Shown here: one piece after another, positions 20,429 to 29,626 of the stretch
Layout: every line of letters starts with the position of its first letter
Numbering within the stretch: the first letter of the stretch is position 1
Source: Ignavibacteria bacterium
GTDB lineage: Bacteria > Bacteroidota > Ignavibacteria > Ignavibacteriales > Melioribacteraceae
Length of the DNA stretch: 36,804 nucleotides
Assembly: GCA_012719345.1 (NCBI GenBank)
Contig: JAAYAN010000174.1
Span: 1 to 36,804 of the forward strand
Reading direction: 5' to 3'
The notes under the pieces: model-generated
Seen by the model: only the letters and a program-made list of their open reading frames with translations
Told to the model about the DNA's origin: nothing
Database searches by the model: none
Translations under genes and position numbers: made by a program

Positions 20429-23400
20429 TTAGTTATTAAGGTTTTTTACCAATCCCGAATATTTTTTTTCGATTTTAAAGCCGAATCTGTAAAAATATTC
20501 AGGTCGGAAAAATCCGGTTGTTATTGTATCAAAATGCTCATCTTTCATCCGGTTGAAAAACTCGCTCATTAGTTTTTCGCTTATTCCTTTCTTCCGGTAT
20601 TTATTTGCAACAACAATTTTTTCAATATGAACTACATGGGAATCGACAATAAAATAATAAAGTCCGCCAATAATATAACCTCTTTCCGAAATTGCAACAA
20701 GAAACTGATGCTCCGGACGGAATTGAATTATCAGATTCGATTCCGTAAAAAGCTGATGAAGCTTCGAAATTTCGCGCGGACTTATCGGTTTGCGGATGCG
20801 GTATTCCGCTCCGTCTGAATCTTCAAAATTAACAACAAGATTGGCAGATTGAAATCCTTCTGCTTTCGGCTTAATAAGAACAGCTGTATCGGTAGGCTTA
20901 ATGTGCGGATAACTCAATCTTATCAAGAAGAATGACTCTCTTTCCGAAATTTCACATTCACTTTGTATTAAAGAAATTTCGGATAAAAACTCTTCATTGG
21001 CAACAATACTGTTTTTTTGTTTTTGCACAAGTTCGTATAGCATCAATTTAAGTTTCTCATTGGATTTTTCGAAAACTGTTTCCACAAAAAATTTCGTTCT
21101 GGTTTCAGGAAAAGCTTTCTCTAATTCGTACAAATTATATGTTTCAAATAATTCTGCCAGCATTTGAGCTTGAGCATTTAACGAAGCATTCTGATTAAGC
21201 AAAAACCATCTGTGAAATCTTTTTATAGCAAAATACGATTGCTTGGGAATGAATCCTTTTGTTTTTACATATTCAATAAAGTTGTTATTAGTATCTTTAA
21301 TTTCTCTGTAAAAATCTTCATTATCAGTTTTTTCAAGTTCGTTATTAAATTGATAAAGGATTTCAAGTCCTGCTTTTTCTCCAAATGTATTTATCACGCC
21401 TGAAAATATGAAATTCCAAATGCCTTTAATTCTGATATGCGAATACTTCTTTTCGCAAGGTTCAATAAATTTAAAATATAAATTCAGGAACAAATCTTTA
21501 AGCGATTCTACTTTTGTCATTTCGGCAAAGGATACAAATCTGGTTCCTGTTTGATAATCGTGCAGAGGGATTAAAATATTTCCCGGAGTGGCGTCCGATA
21601 TTTTAAGACTTTTCCCAGTAAGTTTCCAAAAATTCATATAAGCGGCAGAAGCATTCCAAACAAAAAATGGCCATAAATTATACATCCGCTTATTCGATGC
21701 TTCTTCGTTTTTGCGGTATTCGCTCCTGAAAAATTTATCTACAGTCATTCCAGGTATAAACTTCTGGCTCCACAAATCATATTCTTCCCAATAGCCTCCG
21801 AAATCCTCAACCATTTCTTGTACATAATTACGGGAACCTGCTAAAATAAGCCAGTTAATTTTATCTCGGATTATTTGTTTATCGTAGTTTTGGTTTAAAT
21901 TCAGAATTAAATCGAAAGAACCTTGAAGTCTGGTTTGAACAGAAATTCTGTAAACAGTTTTATAACTGTTGCCGTTATAAAAACTTATATAAACTCCGCC
22001 TGGCAAAATGTTGTTAAGTCTTATCAATGTCCCTTTCGAAAATAAAAATATGGATTCGCGTATAACTGCAGTATAAGTAAGCGCGTTTCTTATTCTTTCT
22101 TTATCTTCAGTGTCAATCCCTTCCTCAAATATCATCACATCATCCCAAGTATACTCTTCTCCGGTTTCTATATCCACTGCTATAGTCTGGTTTACACCCA
22201 GCCACTTCCTGAAACCTTCGCGAATATTAGTACGGGTTATTGTTGCAATCTTAACAATATTTTTTAAATCGTGTTCCACCTGATACTTAACAAGAAAAAT
22301 TCTAACTGCCTCATATTTAGCCGGGTGAAATATTCCAAACCATTCAACCAATTGAAACAAATTATAAATAAGGCTTCCTTCGTTTACAACAATATTTCCG
22401 GCATCCCTTATTTCGGATTCTACAACAGTTTTAATAGCGTCGAAAGTATCTTGGTTGTCTTTAAGATTTACTATCTGCTCAATTATAATTTCATCCAATA
22501 TCTTATGGTCGTAACTGAGATAAATTTTAAGTAGTTTTACCAACCCTATTTCACTTACAGCTTTTAAAGCAACTTTAAGCATTTCTCTGCGCACCATAAA
22601 GCATTCAGTAAGATTAGGAGTTTGAATAATATCTATAACGTATTTATAAACCGGAAGAGTGTTATCGCGCAAAATCAATTCGAGATAACGGGCTGCAATT
22701 ATGGCGCTGGCTTCATCGCAATGATGCATTATAAGCACAGCAATGTGCAAACCGGCAAGTGATTTTTCATTTGAAACGATAAGGAAATTAAGTTTTTTAA
22801 TTAAATCGTGATCTGTTTCGCGGACAAGATTAATAGAATGAAAAGATATTCTTGGATCTTTTTTGGATTGTCTGTACCATTGAAATATCATATCATTTGT
22901 AAAATCAAGCAACTCTTTATTGCCTAACCAGTATATCGGATTTGTTAAAAATGTCTGCAAATCAATATAATCAGATGAAATCACATAATTGAAATCGCCA
23001 ATCCGAAAAATTTTCTTTTCTTTATCAACAAGACGGATTGTAAGCTGTAAATCAAGTTTTGGAATGCAAAGTGAATTGTATTTTACAGCAATATCTCGTG
23101 AAAGGCTACCCACTTCACGTAAAAACCAGTTGGGTATTCTAACATCATACTCATCAACAGCAAGTTCAATATATTCCTTCAAATACATTTCTTCAATAAC
23201 AGAATTGAAGTTTTTCTCGATGTTTCTTCTTTTATAAGTCCCCTTAGGTGTCAATTCTCCGGCTTCAAGCGAAAACGGACGGTCAATAATTCTGAAATTT
23301 AAAATCCTTTCAAACGGCGCCAGAAAATTATTCACGGTAACAACCACAGAAGCAAAATATTCTCTCTGCTGCGAAGTATCCATTCCTGCAAGATGTGCCT

Positions 23401-25216
23401 GATTGGATTCGTAATCGGGATAAATTAATACAGTGTTATAAGGACGGTGATCGCCTACGAGGAAAACCTGTTTAACAAAATCAAAATCGAGAAAATAATT
23501 CTCAATTTTCTGAGGAGCAATGGTTTCGCCTTTTATGTTTTTGTAAATTTCTTTTTTTCTGTCGATTATTTCAATGTAGCCAAATTCATCAATTTTCATT
23601 ATATCGCCGGTGGGAAACCATCCGTCCGCATCAAAAGTCTCTTCGTACAGCTGATCAAAATATCCTTTCATCACATACGGACCTTTAATCAGCAATTCAC
23701 CGTCTTCGGCTACTTTAATCTTTATTCCGGGCAACGGTCCGCCCAGAGAATTCTGTATATAATTACCCGGAGTTGTCATTGTAATTCCGCCGGTGGCTTC
23801 AGTCATTCCGAAGCCGCTCATAAGTTCTATTCCGTAACGCTGAAAAAATTGGAAAATCTCTGGAGATAAAAATCCTGCTGCCGATAATCCTCTTTTTAAT
23901 TCACCTCCGGTTACTTCTTTTATTTTATTAATTATATCATTTTCCTCGCCGAATTCAATATCAACGCGATGACTGATATATTCGTAAATTTGAAGCCATT
24001 TTTTCGGGATGCTTATAAATACGGTCGGTTTAACCAACTGCATGCTTGCAACCATTGTTTCAACAGAAGGATTTTCCATAAAAATATATTCCGAAGCCCA
24101 AAAAACAGCGCCTGTTAATTCTAAATATCTTCCAAATGTATGATAAAGCGGAAGATAGCATAAAAATCTGTCGTTCTCCCCTATTTCGGGTATAGCCATT
24201 GCCCGGCAAAATCTTTTATAAACAATGTTATGATACGAAAAAACTATACCTTTAGGTTCGCCGGTTGTACCCGAAGTGTACATTATTGTAGCAGTATCCA
24301 GAACATTGATATTTTTCTCTTTTTGTAAATTCCTTTTTATTTCCTTTTCAGGTGCTGATTTCAGGAATTCTTCAAATGAAATCACATATTCTTCGGCACT
24401 GGTTCCTTCCAATAAAATTACTTTTTTCAGGCTTTTAACATCGTTTTTAATTGTTTTAATTTTTGCCAGCTGTTTTTCGTCATCTACAATTATTACAGGC
24501 GATTTTGTTTCATCCAAAATCATCCCTGCATGCTTTGCAACAGAATTTGCAGGAATCATAATATTGATTATTCCGCTGTAAAGACATCCCAAATCGAAAA
24601 AAGCCATTTCGGGACTGTTCTCAAGCAGAAAAGATACATATCCGTCGGGCTGCCCTATCGATTCGAGCAATGATTTTAAATTTGAGGAATATTTTTTTAT
24701 TATCTGGTCTGTTTCTTCCCAACTGTAAGATATTTCTCTTTTCCCTTTTAAAACCCGCAGAAGGTTTTTCTTTTGATAATCATTAACTCTTTGTTCAAAC
24801 AATCTGCTAAAAGTAAAGTTGCTTGCAACTATAAGCTTGTCAATTAAATCATCCCATCTTCTTTCGTTTCGTATCTTGGTTAAAAACTGAGGTAAACGAA
24901 AAAGATTAAGATACGAATAAATAAAGTGATTAAGCATTTCGCTATAATCGGGTTTGATTTTTAAGAGGTATTCGCCAAGCTGGTAATAGGTTTCAACATT
25001 AGCTTTTTCCATCACTGGATAAGCGAGATGCGAAGGAATTGCAAATGAGAAAATATCTATTGCTGTTATAAAAGAATCGTTTTTTTCCTTAAAAAGATTT
25101 TTTGTAATTATTTCTTTTAAAAACTCATCAAAGCAGAAAACAATTTCACTTATTTGTTCTTTTTTATGAGAAGCGCTGCTCCATAAAAAAGCCTCGCGTA
25201 GCTTTGTCTCATCCAT
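20429..25216 (-). CDS. Acyl-CoA ligase / kinase-like region / GNAT acyltransferase fusion
   Basis: A ~1,595-residue protein not recognised as a named gene; numbering below counts from the ATG at 25225. Residues 150-680 form an ANL adenylating domain: MYTSGTTGEPKG (315-326), GFGMTEATGG (471-480), GWFPTGD (535-541), hinge DRKKEIYKNIKGE (555-567) and GELTPKGTYKRR (656-667), whose A10 lysine is probably K661. Residues 1440-1598 form a GNAT acyltransferase with the acyl-CoA-binding YRKKGISEKLM (1543-1553) and YRFGF (1579-1583). Between them, about 690-1440, helix-rich sequence includes a segment (about 1060-1240) shaped like a phosphotransferase/kinase fold: FIPGMT hinge (1156-1161) and SDATPGNILIP (1210-1220). 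No membrane helix or signal peptide is seen. The preferred start is the ATG at 25216, because AAGGA abuts the first ATG directly but lies nine bases before this one. It follows gltA in one transcript. Likely role, inferred: activates an acyl group and acylates a protein or metabolite amine. Confidence 0.8.
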   Translation of the reverse strand: MDETKLREAFLWSSASHKKEQISEIVFCFDEFLKEIITKNLFKEKNDSFITAIDIFSFAIPSHLAYPVMEKANVETYYQLGEYLLKIKPDYSEMLNHFIYSYLNLFRLPQFLTKIRNERRWDDLIDKLIVASNFTFSRLFEQRVNDYQKKNLLRVLKGKREISYSWEETDQIIKKYSSNLKSLLESIGQPDGYVSFLLENSPEMAFFDLGCLYSGIINIMIPANSVAKHAGMILDETKSPVIIVDDEKQLAKIKTIKNDVKSLKKVILLEGTSAEEYVISFEEFLKSAPEKEIKRNLQKEKNINVLDTATIMYTSGTTGEPKGIVFSYHNIVYKRFCRAMAIPEIGENDRFLCYLPLYHTFGRYLELTGAVFWASEYIFMENPSVETMVASMQLVKPTVFISIPKKWLQIYEYISHRVDIEFGEENDIINKIKEVTGGELKRGLSAAGFLSPEIFQFFQRYGIELMSGFGMTEATGGITMTTPGNYIQNSLGGPLPGIKIKVAEDGELLIKGPYVMKGYFDQLYEETFDADGWFPTGDIMKIDEFGYIEIIDRKKEIYKNIKGETIAPQKIENYFLDFDFVKQVFLVGDHRPYNTVLIYPDYESNQAHLAGMDTSQQREYFASVVVTVNNFLAPFERILNFRIIDRPFSLEAGELTPKGTYKRRNIEKNFNSVIEEMYLKEYIELAVDEYDVRIPNWFLREVGSLSRDIAVKYNSLCIPKLDLQLTIRLVDKEKKIFRIGDFNYVISSDYIDLQTFLTNPIYWLGNKELLDFTNDMIFQWYRQSKKDPRISFHSINLVRETDHDLIKKLNFLIVSNEKSLAGLHIAVLIMHHCDEASAIIAARYLELILRDNTLPVYKYVIDIIQTPNLTECFMVRREMLKVALKAVSEIGLVKLLKIYLSYDHKILDEIIIEQIVNLKDNQDTFDAIKTVVESEIRDAGNIVVNEGSLIYNLFQLVEWFGIFHPAKYEAVRIFLVKYQVEHDLKNIVKIATITRTNIREGFRKWLGVNQTIAVDIETGEEYTWDDVMIFEEGIDTEDKERIRNALTYTAVIRESIFLFSKGTLIRLNNILPGGVYISFYNGNSYKTVYRISVQTRLQGSFDLILNLNQNYDKQIIRDKINWLILAGSRNYVQEMVEDFGGYWEEYDLWSQKFIPGMTVDKFFRSEYRKNEEASNKRMYNLWPFFVWNASAAYMNFWKLTGKSLKISDATPGNILIPLHDYQTGTRFVSFAEMTKVESLKDLFLNLYFKFIEPCEKKYSHIRIKGIWNFIFSGVINTFGEKAGLEILYQFNNELEKTDNEDFYREIKDTNNNFIEYVKTKGFIPKQSYFAIKRFHRWFLLNQNASLNAQAQMLAELFETYNLYELEKAFPETRTKFFVETVFEKSNEKLKLMLYELVQKQKNSIVANEEFLSEISLIQSECEISERESFFLIRLSYPHIKPTDTAVLIKPKAEGFQSANLVVNFEDSDGAEYRIRKPISPREISKLHQLFTESNLIIQFRPEHQFLVAISERGYIIGGLYYFIVDSHVVHIEKIVVANKYRKKGISEKLMSEFFNRMKDEHFDTITTGFFRPEYFYRFGFKIEKKYSGLVKNLNN

Positions 25217-25225
25217 CAATTGCAT

Positions 25226-25243: not shown

Positions 25244-26551
25244 TTATTTTTTGATTCCTGCAATTTCTTCAAGCATATCAGTAGTAAGCGATTTCGGTCT
25301 CTCGAGTGGATAACCCAAAGCACGTGCCCAAATTATGTTGGCACACACACCAAGGGCTCTTCCTACACCGAAAAGCACTGTATAAAAATCGTATTCTTTA
25401 ACCCCATAATGCCATTGTATTACCCCGGACTGAGAATCTACATTTGGCCATGGATTTTTCGCTTTTCCTTGTTCAAGTAAAATAGGAGGAACAACTTTGT
25501 AAAGCATATCCACATATTTGAATATGGGGTCTTCATGTAAATGTTTAAGACTGAATTCCCTCTGAGCCATGTACCTTGGATCAGTTTTGCGAAGCACAGC
25601 ATGCCCGAATCCCGGAATTACGTGTCCGGATTTCAGTGTATCCCACACGAATTTTTTCATTTCATCTTCGGTAGGAATTTTTCCGCCCATTTTATTCATA
25701 ACATCTTGAATCCAGCGAAGCACTTCCTGATTTGCCAATCCGTGCAAAGGACCAGCCAGTCCGTTAAGCATTGCAGAAATTGAATAATATATATCGGATA
25801 AAGCGCTTGCAACGAGATGTCCTGTATGAGCACTTACATTTCCGCTTTCGTGATCGCTATGCAAAATAAAATATAACCGTGAAACATCATCGTAAGGTTC
25901 CGAAACGCCCATCATATGAGCAAAATTTTCGCCCCAATCGGCATTATTTAAAGACGGAATTACACTTCCGTTTTTATATTTTAGGCGATAAATAAATGCA
26001 GCTATTTCCGGCAATTTTGCCATAAGATTTAAAGAGTCTTCGTATGTAGGATCCCAATAATCATTTTTATTTAATCCGTTTTCGTATCTCTTAACAAACA
26101 CAGATTCGCGCTGCATTGTAATTATTGCGGCCGAAAGCATTGTCATTGGATGAGAATCAATAGGAATTGCACGTATAACATCAAAAACATATTCGGGTAC
26201 TTTTTTGCGGCTTTCAAATTCGTTAACAACAAGCTGAATATCTTTTTCATCAGGGATATCTCCAGTAAGTAAAAAGAAAAAGAATCCTTCAACATAGGGC
26301 ATTTCCGATCCGGGAACTTTTGGAAGTTTTTCAAGCACTTCAGGAATTGTCAATCCTCTGAATCTTATTCCCTCCTGCGGATCGAGGTATGAAATATCAG
26401 TTGTCATAGATTTAATATCGCGCATTCCGCCGATTATCTGCCCGATATTAACTTCATCAACTTTAACTTCGCTGAATTCTTTTAATAATCTAGCTGTTCT
26501 CGGACGCCAGGCTACAATTTTTTCAAAAAGCTTTTCTTTCAATGCGGTCAT
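25244..26551 (-). CDS. gltA: Citrate synthase
   Basis: Condenses acetyl-CoA and oxaloacetate to citrate, the entry to the TCA cycle. About 435 residues resembling the eukaryotic/mitochondrial-like class: GGMRDIKSMTTDISYLDP, GIRFRGLTIPE, HSDHESGNVSAHTGHLVAS, GLAGPLHGLANQEVLRWI (catalytic histidine), VIPGFGHAVLRKTDPR (second histidine) and a C-terminal ERPKS. The frame opens at a TTG (26563), but ATG at 26549-26551 has GGGGG five bases upstream and is the better start. A strong promoter lies just upstream, and the ligase/GNAT fusion gene follows after a short gap. Confidence 0.95.
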   Translation of the reverse strand: MTALKEKLFEKIVAWRPRTARLLKEFSEVKVDEVNIGQIIGGMRDIKSMTTDISYLDPQEGIRFRGLTIPEVLEKLPKVPGSEMPYVEGFFFFLLTGDIPDEKDIQLVVNEFESRKKVPEYVFDVIRAIPIDSHPMTMLSAAIITMQRESVFVKRYENGLNKNDYWDPTYEDSLNLMAKLPEIAAFIYRLKYKNGSVIPSLNNADWGENFAHMMGVSEPYDDVSRLYFILHSDHESGNVSAHTGHLVASALSDIYYSISAMLNGLAGPLHGLANQEVLRWIQDVMNKMGGKIPTEDEMKKFVWDTLKSGHVIPGFGHAVLRKTDPRYMAQREFSLKHLHEDPIFKYVDMLYKVVPPILLEQGKAKNPWPNVDSQSGVIQWHYGVKEYDFYTVLFGVGRALGVCANIIWARALGYPLERPKSLTTDMLEEIAGIKK

Positions 26552-26556
26552 GGTGT

Positions 26557-26561
26557 CCCCC
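26557..26561 (-). promoter_or_regulatory. Ribosome-binding site of gltA
   Basis: GGGGG on the minus strand, five bases before the ATG at 26551. It overlaps the alternative upstream TTG codon, which argues against initiation there. Confidence 0.4.
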
Positions 26562-26611
26562 AATTTTTAATTTAGGATTTTAAATTCTTTCAATAAACAA
26601 AAATAATTCTA

Positions 26612-26644: not shown

Positions 26645-27916
26645 TTATATTTTTCCAGCTGAATTTCTTCCGCTTTTTACAGCACTTTCAATTGTTGACG
26701 GCAAATCTGTATTTGTCCAATCTCCTGCTATAAATAAATTTCCAATATTTTCTTTTATTTTTTCTCTTATTACAGAAGATTCCTCAGTAGACATAAATGC
26801 GGCTCTTTTTTCTTTAATCACAATAAAGTCTGTAATAAGGCTTTTGCAAAAACAAGGAAAATAATCTTGAAGTTCATTTGTTGCAAAATTAGATATTTCC
26901 TCATCATTCATTTTCAGAAATTCATTTCCGGCGCTTATTACAAGATTTAGATGAGTTTTTTTATTAAAAACCCAATGAATTTTCGAACCCATTAAAGCAT
27001 AAATATCTTTATTAAATCCATTTTCTTTTAATTTAAAATGAATATTTATTATCGGGGCTGTTTCAAGCTCATTAATATTAAGTTCTTCAACAATATGCTC
27101 CGGTAAAATTTTCTGCAACGCAGGTATCGGAACAGCGCAGAATACATAATCAAATTCCGGATATTTATTTTTATTTGTTACAATTCTTACTGCTTTATCC
27201 TTTTCAAAATTTACTGAAATAACTTTTTCGGAACTTTCTATTCTACATCCTTTTTCAATCAAATACTTTTTACATCCCACAGAGAAAACTTCATCCAAAG
27301 GCTGCGAAGGCAAAAGAAAAAGATAATTATCTTTTTTCATAAATACTGTTTTCAGAATTTTTAAAAATATTCCTGCCGAAGCTTTCTTTATTGGCGTGTT
27401 CAGCATACTAACAGCTAATATTTCCCAAAAATTTGAAATGATTTTATCCGATTGGTTATTCTTTTTTAGCCAGTTGTAAATGTTTATTTCTTTAAGTTTT
27501 TCTGGATTTATTACAGGCAGTTTTACAAATAATGCTAATATTTTAATTCTTTCGCGGAGATTAAATCCGTTAAATCTCAGCAGCGAATACAAAAGATTAA
27601 AAGGATAAAATTTTTCGGTAATCCGAAGAAAGGCTATTCTGCCGCCGCGGCTTACAAAGGGAATTTCCAGAATATTTTTTAATTCGGTTTTTTCTATTCC
27701 GCCAGTAATATTTAAAAAATTCAGAGTATCTTTATAACAATTCAACATTAAGTGCTGACCATTATCAATCTTTAATCCGTTCCACTTAAAAGAATATGTT
27801 CTGCCGCCAAGCTTTGGCGATGCTTCCAGAACTGTAACTTTATGCCCCGATTCTGCCAGGTTTGCGGCAGCTGATAAACCGGAAATTCCTGCTCCTATTA
27901 CTATACAATCAGCCAT
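26645..27916 (-). CDS. hpnE: Hydroxysqualene dehydroxylase (HpnE)
   Basis: FAD-dependent amine-oxidase-fold enzyme that reduces hydroxysqualene to squalene, third step of the bacterial HpnCDE route. The 423 residues start with the FAD-binding VIGAGISGLSAAANLAESG (5-23) and EASPKLGGRT, and end with the HpnE-type LFIAGDWTNTDLPSTIESA. The start overlaps the hpnD stop by one base (TGATG). A carotenoid desaturase is an alternative for this fold, but the partner genes favour HpnE. Confidence 0.9.
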   Translation of the reverse strand: MADCIVIGAGISGLSAAANLAESGHKVTVLEASPKLGGRTYSFKWNGLKIDNGQHLMLNCYKDTLNFLNITGGIEKTELKNILEIPFVSRGGRIAFLRITEKFYPFNLLYSLLRFNGFNLRERIKILALFVKLPVINPEKLKEINIYNWLKKNNQSDKIISNFWEILAVSMLNTPIKKASAGIFLKILKTVFMKKDNYLFLLPSQPLDEVFSVGCKKYLIEKGCRIESSEKVISVNFEKDKAVRIVTNKNKYPEFDYVFCAVPIPALQKILPEHIVEELNINELETAPIINIHFKLKENGFNKDIYALMGSKIHWVFNKKTHLNLVISAGNEFLKMNDEEISNFATNELQDYFPCFCKSLITDFIVIKEKRAAFMSTEESSVIREKIKENIGNLFIAGDWTNTDLPSTIESAVKSGRNSAGKI

Positions 27917-28755
27917 CAGTAAATAAACTTATATTTTGCCCATACCCCTAAAGCGATAAACAGTTTTTCTGCTTTCGAAACATTTATTTTTTCTTCAAAT
28001 ATCCTGAACTTTTGTTTTTCAAGTTTATTTAAAAGATTAAAATAAATGTGCTGCATTGCTCTTGCAGCAAACATACTTTGTTTATCTTCAAACATAAGGT
28101 TACGGTCTGCATTATTGAAAAAAAATCTTGCCCTATCGGCTTCGTACTTCATCAACAAATAAAAATTATCGTTATATACCCTGTTAAAAACATCTTCTTC
28201 TGTATAATTAAATTTTTTTAAATCCTCTAGAGGTAAATATATTCTTCCGATTTTAGAATCGGTATAAACATCGCGTAAAATATTTGTAAGCTGCATTGCT
28301 TTGCCGAGATCAGTTGCAAATTGTTTTGCCTTTTCATTTTTATATCCGAAAATTTCGATAGACATTAACCCGACAGTGGATGCAGCTCTGTAACAATATA
28401 ATTCAAGCTCATCAAAAGTCTGATACCGGCTTTTTGTTAAATCCATCTCCATCCCTTTTATCAAATCGAAAAACGGCTCAACAGGAATGGAATATTTTCT
28501 TATTGCGGCTGCAACTTCTGCCAGCAAAGGATTACCAGAACTGCCATTAAGAGCTTTTTCAAAGTCATTTTTCCAATTAATAAGGTTTATCAGCTTAATT
28601 TCATCCGAATCAGAATTTTCATCCACAATGTCGTCTGTCTTACGACAGAAAGCATAAACAGTATTCATTGCCGCGCTTTTTTCTTTGGGCAGTAAATTGA
28701 ATGCATGATAAAAGCTGCTTTTGCTTTCTTTTGCTATTTTCTTCGCCTGACTCAT
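27916..28755 (-). CDS. hpnD: Presqualene diphosphate synthase (HpnD)
   Basis: Condenses two farnesyl diphosphates to presqualene diphosphate. The 279 residues carry the two aspartate-rich Mg-binding motifs of squalene/phytoene synthases: DDIVD (41-45) and LRDVYTD (160-166), with YRAASTVGL between. One base separates its ATG from the hpnC stop. No Shine-Dalgarno sequence is visible, so translation is probably coupled. A phytoene synthase is the main alternative; the hpnC-hpnD-hpnE trio argues for squalene. Confidence 0.9.
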   Translation of the reverse strand: MSQAKKIAKESKSSFYHAFNLLPKEKSAAMNTVYAFCRKTDDIVDENSDSDEIKLINLINWKNDFEKALNGSSGNPLLAEVAAAIRKYSIPVEPFFDLIKGMEMDLTKSRYQTFDELELYCYRAASTVGLMSIEIFGYKNEKAKQFATDLGKAMQLTNILRDVYTDSKIGRIYLPLEDLKKFNYTEEDVFNRVYNDNFYLLMKYEADRARFFFNNADRNLMFEDKQSMFAARAMQHIYFNLLNKLEKQKFRIFEEKINVSKAEKLFIALGVWAKYKFIY

Positions 28756-28756
28756 T

Positions 28757-29626
28757 TTAACTAGTTATTGTTTTTAAAAATAGAATCAAATAATCTTTTT
28801 TTGATAATTTAAGATGCTCTTTAAAAACATCGTAATCCGAATGCTTTATTTTTTGCAGAATTTTCTTTCCTCCGAAAATTGTCATTTTTATCTGAAACTT
28901 AAACCTCCCCGAAAGATATGGAACAAGCTTTTCTCCTTCGTCAAACATTTTTTCAGTTCTTTCGCATTGATATTTTAATAAATCCTTGAAATTTTTTGAA
29001 TAAGATGAATTTAAAATTTGCTGTTCACTTACATTGAATTTTTTAATTTCGTCTAGCGGAATGTAAATTCTGTTCTTTTTAATATCAACCGAAATATCCT
29101 GCCAAAAATTTACAAGCTGCAATGCACTGCAAATTAAATTGGAATATTCGAATGCTTTTTCATCTCGGATATTGAAAAGTTCAAGCATTATTCTTCCTAC
29201 GGGATTTGCCGAATTTGAACAATACCCTGAAAGCTCGCCGAAATTTTCATATCGTATTTTCGATACATCCTGTTTAAAAGCTTTTAATAAATCAAAAAAA
29301 TTATCTCTGCTAAGATTGAATTTTTTTATTGTATCATTAAGAACAAACCAAAAACCATTTTTAAAAATGTTTTTTTCACATTTTTTTAAATCATTTTCAA
29401 ATTCATTAAGTAAATTAATACGTTCATCAACTGTTAATTTACCTTCATCGGCAAAATCATCGGCAGTTCGGGCAAATTGGTAAATAACAGCAACATTACT
29501 GCGAAACTTTTTAGGCAGGAAATACGAAATAACGGGAAAATTTTCGTAATGGATGGCAGCTAAATTTTCAGCCTCCTTATAGCATTTTTTCAGATCGAAT
29601 TTTGGTGAAGCAGAACTTGAAATCAT
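28757..29626 (-). CDS. hpnC: Hydroxysqualene synthase (HpnC)
   Basis: Converts presqualene diphosphate to hydroxysqualene. The 289 residues have the first aspartate motif DDFAD (56-60), the HpnC-type NSANPVGRIMLELF (138-151) and the second motif QDISVD (176-181) followed by KKNRIYIP. The start lies 25 bases after the 3' end of tRNA-Leu, with no obvious promoter, terminator or Shine-Dalgarno sequence between, so the mRNA may begin as the trailer of a tRNA precursor. Confidence 0.9.
   Translation of the reverse strand: MISSSASPKFDLKKCYKEAENLAAIHYENFPVISYFLPKKFRSNVAVIYQFARTADDFADEGKLTVDERINLLNEFENDLKKCEKNIFKNGFWFVLNDTIKKFNLSRDNFFDLLKAFKQDVSKIRYENFGELSGYCSNSANPVGRIMLELFNIRDEKAFEYSNLICSALQLVNFWQDISVDIKKNRIYIPLDEIKKFNVSEQQILNSSYSKNFKDLLKYQCERTEKMFDEGEKLVPYLSGRFKFQIKMTIFGGKKILQKIKHSDYDVFKEHLKLSKKDYLILFLKTITS

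Follow-up and report, generated by a model that had tools for sequence, protein, structure and literature searches.

The locus raises two questions: what a single polypeptide with an acyl-CoA ligase at one end and a GNAT acyltransferase at the other might do, and what occupies the long stretch between them. An earlier note, made from the letters of this DNA alone, had reported both domains and had put that stretch at about 750 residues matching no nameable family. The window (the whole stretch of DNA analysed, 36,804 nucleotides from an Ignavibacteria bacterium) carries the fusion gene on its minus strand as one unbroken open frame, 20429..25225, of 1,598 codons, giving 1,598 amino acids from an ATG; position 25216, where the gene had previously been ended, is codon 4 and likewise an ATG. 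According to sequence or model, the order along the chain is ANL ligase, beta subdomain, helical solenoid, kinase-like fold and GNAT, and the features are as follows:

20429..25225, minus strand: fusion gene, 1,598 aa plus stop (open frame; full-length relatives)
24836..25225, minus strand: N-terminal extension, residues 1-130 (weak conservation; without Pfam match)
23177..24796, minus strand: ANL (AMP-forming acyl-CoA ligase) domain, residues 144-683 (Pfam PF00501 and PF23562; PDB relatives)
23225..23257, minus strand: A10 segment, residues 657-667, with Lys at 661 and Thr at the usual lysine column, 663
22901..23170, minus strand: beta-rich subdomain, residues 686-775 (AlphaFold models)
22196..22900, minus strand: helical region suggestive of a HEAT/ARM/TOG-like solenoid, residues 776-1010 (AlphaFold model; fold searches)
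21302..22120, minus strand: protein-kinase-like domain, probable pseudokinase, residues 1036-1308 (model, fold searches, alignment columns)
20831..21301, minus strand: C-terminal helical region from the kinase-like domain to the GNAT, residues 1309-1465 (secondary structure of the model)
20474..20785, minus strand: GNAT domain, residues 1481-1584, P-loop R1544..G1547 (Pfam; conserved columns)
25244..26563, minus strand (the same strand): citrate synthase (PRK09569 type), 18 bp upstream of the fusion

The fusion is one gene, as the earlier note had taken it to be, and its origin as an artefact joining two genes was rejected because the full chain recurs across many genomes. Residues 690-1480 have a homologue in 52 of 97 genomes, a count that includes the window's own; in 44 of these it lies in an open frame of 1,515-1,654 aa and in 8 in shorter frames, several of which stop at contig ends (not each was checked). 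Eight of the 52 genomes stand apart as a divergent group, the middle of their chains being 22-24% identical. A pattern scan across genomes yielded 124 relatives, the best 80 of which are 32-51% identical and belong, as judged from record titles, to Ignavibacteria/Melioribacteraceae, Calditrichota, Gemmatimonadota, Acidobacteria, KSB1, Planctomycetota and others. The window and these best 80 constitute the 81 loci referred to below. The 69 of 81 whose frame reaches 1,500 aa or more were aligned, and the 12 omitted were cut by a contig end, broken, or without a frame that could be found; alignments A4 and A5 hold 67 of the 69 rows, the near copies L106 and L108 being left out. A 33-row alignment (A1), which includes the eight divergent members, shares some genomes with the 69 rows, and the two sets of counts are thus not independent.

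A profile of the middle matched 23 of 395 genomes of the phylum, namely 21 long-frame fusions and two weak matches of about 100 residues in frames of 371-374 aa. The GNAT domain was found in 50 of the 97 genomes, all of them among the 52 with the fusion, and it lies in the long frame or its fragment; the same search left the 45 fusion-less genomes without a match, and one further GNAT match outside the long frame is weak (157 aa). The parts of the fusion travel together in the genomes searched. Locus L085 was considered as a natural split of the chain and rejected, because a single in-frame TAA, in a lone metagenome-assembled genome, is what parts its two frames.

The ligase part is well defined. 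In Pfam, AMP-binding (PF00501) covers residues 144-523 (2.6e-54, 184.9 bits against a curated cut-off of 29.9) and AMP-binding_C_3 (PF23562) residues 564-683 (3.9e-12), and this AMP-forming pair is the sole synthetase-type match in the chain. Sequence matches in the PDB are headed by carboxylic acid reductases, luciferases and CoA ligases. The closest relatives are long-chain-type acyl-CoA synthetases of about 610 aa, which are the nearest stand-alone ligases (36-40% identity), and the adenylation domain of carboxylic acid reductases; unlike the fusion, both kinds are without a GNAT or kinase-like part. The ANL motifs had been described as complete, which holds for A3, A5, A7 and A8, near-invariant in the 69-row alignment (A8 Lys562 in 69/69 rows), but not for A10, where the lysine column is Thr in 68 rows and Ser in one (T 30/S 3 in the 33-row alignment) and a Lys, Lys661, stands two residues upstream in 69/69 rows. 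The A10 column is Lys in a carboxylic acid reductase, in the acetyl-CoA synthetases of four relatives and in the window's other ANL gene.

As a control, 15 stand-alone ligases of about 610 aa were fetched from relatives without the fusion and 13 were used in the A10 comparison, the remaining two likewise having Lys. The lysine occupies its usual column in 11 of the 13, and the other two, L234 (G077) and L236 (G034), show the same shift, with Lys two residues upstream and Ser at A10; both are otherwise ordinary-looking acyl-CoA ligases of about 610 aa. Membership of the fusion in the ANL fold family is not in doubt despite the missing A10-column lysine and, as judged from these sequences, the shift may be a tolerated relocation and not a loss of function. 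Because two of 13 stand-alone ligases share it, the shift is no argument on its own for a sensor domain, and the idea of the ANL domain as a dead sensor is weakened by this control.

At the other end of the chain, Acetyltransf_1 (PF00583) matches residues 1501-1583 (1.5e-8, 35.4 bits against a cut-off of 20.7), and with the AMP-binding match it bears out the reported presence of a ligase and a GNAT in one chain, a combination that is real and conserved. The best PDB relatives in a profile search were Tetrahymena GCN5 histone acetyltransferase (4.3e-7). In the P-loop (R/Q-x-x-G-x-G/A-like), R1544 is kept in 69/69 and G1547 in 68/69 rows, the third position being mostly Ser (58) or Ala (11), and an acidic residue at 1535, on the strand before the P-loop, is present in 69/69 rows. 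All three (R1544, G1547 and the acidic 1535) are retained in 33/33 rows of the alignment including the eight divergent members; Tyr1579 is found in 69/69 rows, but in 0/8 divergent members. With its CoA-binding P-loop kept, the GNAT domain looks competent.

Between these two assigned parts, Pfam gave no family at E<=1 with its best stretch within residues 684-1480, in agreement with the earlier description of this region, and profile searches of the middle by sequence alone against the PDB and Pfam made no assignment. AlphaFold modelling, which had been proposed as a way to assign the middle, produced a model of residues 686-1462 (69 aligned rows; pLDDT 90.4, pTM 0.81) with a beta-rich subdomain, a suggestive solenoid and a kinase-like fold, so that folds can be named for most of a stretch of about 800 residues, between ligase and GNAT, which is outside Pfam's recognition. 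Residues 686-1018 modelled alone reached a pLDDT of 93.0. Foldseek returned no match to that model at E<=0.001 (best E 0.033), and structure comparison with designed helical repeats, TOG, PP2A-scaffold and similar solenoids gave Z 7.6-9.9, the best of which, 9.9, is under the level trusted for helical repeats; the fold searches scarcely covered the first ~90 residues, i.e. the beta-rich subdomain. The model of residues 776-1010 is suggestive of a HEAT/ARM-like solenoid.

The second half of the middle gave a clearer result. Foldseek with the middle model found 48 matches at E<=0.001, with Vps34 (helical plus kinase domain) at the top (2.0e-5), followed by PsiK and varied protein kinases. In VIA, 610 of 999 chains scored at a Z of at least 8 against the same model, among them Bud32 (4ww7; Z 12.0, 4.0 A over 217 residues, fusion residues 1036-1308), PRPK (11.6), Rio1 (10.7) and JAK2 (10.6). 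The kinase-like domain is 9-13% identical in the Bud32, PRPK and Rio1 rows, and no kinase was detected in the middle by sequence-only profile searches. By its model, the stretch 1036-1308 is a protein-kinase-like fold. The motif columns were located by following the succession of secondary-structure elements along the model, without residue alignment to a kinase, and on this mapping the DFG-Asp column is S 67/T 2 in the 69 rows and S 31/T 2 in the 33 rows that include the eight divergent members. The HRD-Asp column is D 34, N 20 and E 10 of 69 rows, the catalytic-loop Asn1216 is present in 54/69 rows and in all eight divergent members, and along the expected beta3 strand (1103-1111) Lys is absent from the four commonest residues at every column of the 69 rows. 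Since the DFG-Asp column is Ser or Thr in 69/69 rows, the domain, although like Bud32/PRPK, RIO and related folds (Z 12.0 to 10.6), is unlike them in missing the DFG aspartate and is a probable pseudokinase, with the columns inferred from the model. The alpha-C Glu column (residue 1122, 21860-21862) is Glu in 66/69 rows and Lys in the window protein.

The architecture found in the window recurs in several phyla (as given by record titles), and its genomic context recurs with it in part. Citrate synthase was found in 41 of the 81 loci (the window and the best 80 of 124 relatives) and lies within 700 bp of the fusion in 33 of the 81. The adjacent gene is upstream on the same strand in 26 cases, convergent in five (L123 from KSB1, L124 and L140 from Gemmatimonadales, L129, L132 from Acidobacteria) and downstream on the same strand in two (L127 and L141, Gemmatimonadota); genome coordinates place an additional convergent citrate synthase at L134. 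The citrate synthase next to the KSB1 fusion is of the TIGR01800 type, scoring 470.1 bits (cut-off 421.3), and is about 29% identical to that of the window. Adjacency was not seen at the Calditrichota-titled loci, in the eight divergent members, or at L126, L128, L130, L133, L135 and L142, and some loci without an adjacent citrate synthase stop at contig edges. Convergent genes, moreover, form no operon. Of the fusion genomes, 32 were tested: 28 carry the close citrate synthase type, one carries only a distant type, and three gave no match; the close type is present in 42 of the 44 close-fusion genomes among the 97 and also in many genomes without the fusion. What supports the link is adjacency in rearranged order rather than strict co-occurrence.

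Other neighbours were less telling. CTP synthase adjoins the fusion in the window and is its neighbour in 19 loci, always downstream and on the same strand, which fits inherited gene order, as expected. A Pfam search of ten genes beside fusions lacking an adjacent citrate synthase gave no recurring partner, and no biosynthetic gene recurs beside the fusion in the loci examined.

The fusion matches neither type I/II GNATs nor the AcuA-AcsA pair, the nearest described kinds. A review (PMC8556138) lists bacterial protein acetyltransferases whose GNAT is accompanied by an NDP-forming synthetase domain or by a small ligand-binding domain, stands without any extra domain, or is present in tandem; in type I/II enzymes an inactive acyl-CoA synthetase domain serves as a sensor. 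Like type I/II Pat (Salmonella Pat, E. coli PatZ, Streptomyces PatA), the fusion unites an acyl-CoA-synthetase-like domain and a GNAT in a large chain and has altered synthetase residues, and its GNAT is C-terminal, as in type I; however, the synthetase of those enzymes is NDP-forming and inactive, whereas that of the fusion is an AMP-forming ANL domain with its core motifs kept, and the fusion adds a solenoid and a kinase-like fold (compare PMC8556138). In Bacillus subtilis, AcsA is acetylated on its A10 lysine by AcuA, with which it forms a complex (PMC11255334). The fusion likewise pairs a GNAT with an AMP-forming acyl-CoA synthetase, but AcuA and AcsA are separate proteins with the A10 lysine at its usual column and no kinase-like domain. 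Full-text searches of open-licence papers turned up no title or abstract opening that describes such a fusion, which is weak evidence of absence.

Our favoured reading, possible rather than probable, is that the fusion is a large, regulated acyltransferase working where acetyl-CoA meets citrate synthase, and that its targets are citrate synthase, its own ligase domain, or both. This reading combines an apparently intact GNAT, an apparently defective kinase fold, a scaffold, a shifted catalytic lysine in the ligase and a recurrent citrate synthase neighbour; as a known parallel, the inactive synthetase sensor of type I/II GNATs was counted in its favour. Points against it are the loci and genomes in which citrate synthase is not adjacent or gave no match, the same citrate synthase in many relatives lacking the fusion, the fact that convergent genes form no operon, and the absence of Tyr1579 from the GNAT of the divergent members. 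The GNAT would draw on acyl-CoA that the ANL domain either makes or senses, and its targets would be lysines on a metabolic enzyme, with citrate synthase, the ANL domain or both as the likeliest candidates, while the solenoid and pseudokinase might dock the target and report nucleotide or metabolite state. The kinase-like fold without its DFG aspartate and the recurrent citrate synthase neighbour change the picture given by the earlier note, which had offered either transfer of an activated carboxylate to an amine or acylation and control of the chain's own ligase; the latter would need a shifted site, because the A10 lysine is off its usual column and the invariant Lys lies two residues upstream. 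If the proposal is true, a GNAT acylating citrate synthase would set carbon entry into the citric acid cycle, and the adjacency hints at an undescribed control point on the entry of acetyl-CoA. The fusion would then be a separate solution to protein acetylation, built on an AMP-forming ligase and a pseudokinase, with citrate synthase as a concrete testable target. That it represents an undescribed class of metabolic control enzyme in several phyla, in which the ANL domain and the pseudokinase regulate a GNAT acylating citrate synthase, we consider unlikely.

A somewhat unlikely alternative is that the chain is an active acyl-CoA ligase feeding citrate synthase with acetyl-CoA, or a methylcitrate-type reaction with propionyl-CoA, and that the GNAT is only a built-in brake acylating Lys661 or its surroundings, i.e. 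AcuA-AcsA in one chain. The near-invariant core motifs, the invariance of Lys562 and Lys661 and the same lysine shift in two stand-alone ligases, suggesting relocation over loss, all agree with it, as does the acetylation of the A10 lysine within the AcuA-AcsA complex (PMC11255334). In Geobacter, the AMP ligase GSU1103, whose number is near that of citrate synthase (GSU1106), increases on propionate, which it is inferred to activate (PMC13274346, PMC2825233). The idea that GSU1103-GSU1106 is a simple split version of the fusion is not supported, GSU1105 being listed as a prolidase (PMC5585712). Against the active ligase, its nearest stand-alone relatives are of long-chain type and not acetyl- or propionyl-CoA synthetases, and acetyl-CoA synthetases above the curated cut-off already occur in 73 of the 97 genomes. 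These, and sirtuins (89 of 97), are by inspection common both with and without the fusion; internal stops were reported in many acetyl-CoA synthetase matches and proved to be the natural gene end in all four genes fetched.

It is quite unlikely that the chain is a biosynthetic enzyme, in which the ANL domain would activate a carboxylate and the GNAT would move the acyl group from CoA to a small amine, yielding an N-acyl metabolite. Such logic exists in insect Ebony, which has adenylating and GNAT-like domains in one chain together with a carrier domain and makes amides, and in the genomes searched the ligase and the GNAT of the fusion are always in one chain. Unlike Ebony-type enzymes, the fusion contains no phosphopantetheine carrier-domain family at E<=1 in Pfam; no biosynthetic neighbour recurs, the recurrent one in several phyla being citrate synthase, and the pseudokinase and solenoid would be left unexplained. 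A very improbable reading makes the kinase-like domain an unusual active phosphotransferase on acyl-CoA or a small molecule and the chain a three-step catabolic enzyme. The better conservation of the kinase-like stretch (mean column identity 54% versus 40% for residues 686-1018) and the retention of Asn1216 are in its favour, but the DFG-Asp column is never Asp in either alignment, the HRD-Asp column is divided among D, N and E, and the beta3 strand has no common Lys.

Returning to citrate synthase, we noted a C-terminal AGIK or similar ending in most of the genomes that have the fusion and a different tail in a clade that lacks it. Gly at column 436 and Ile at 437 were present in 42 of 45 fusion-positive and 6 of 23 fusion-negative sequences, several of the latter being cut short at these columns. 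Where citrate synthase ends are longer, most fusion-negatives are one clade; the tail is kept in the fusion-negative G021, G023, G042, G043, G090 and G096 and absent from the fusion-positive L083, L119 and L138. This difference is a lead only, confounded by kinship. In G093, citrate synthase (G093:C1:3127426-3128715) is in pieces with internal stops, and the frame of its fusion measures 1,431 aa; sequencing errors or decay may be the cause. In the window, the squalene genes HpnC, HpnD and HpnE (26645-29626) lie upstream of citrate synthase and run in the same direction, an arrangement found again in related loci. Finally, a gene family (c26) lies upstream of the fusion in L121, L124, L127, L134 and L140; its member in L121 is TIGR03545-like, slightly below the cut-off.
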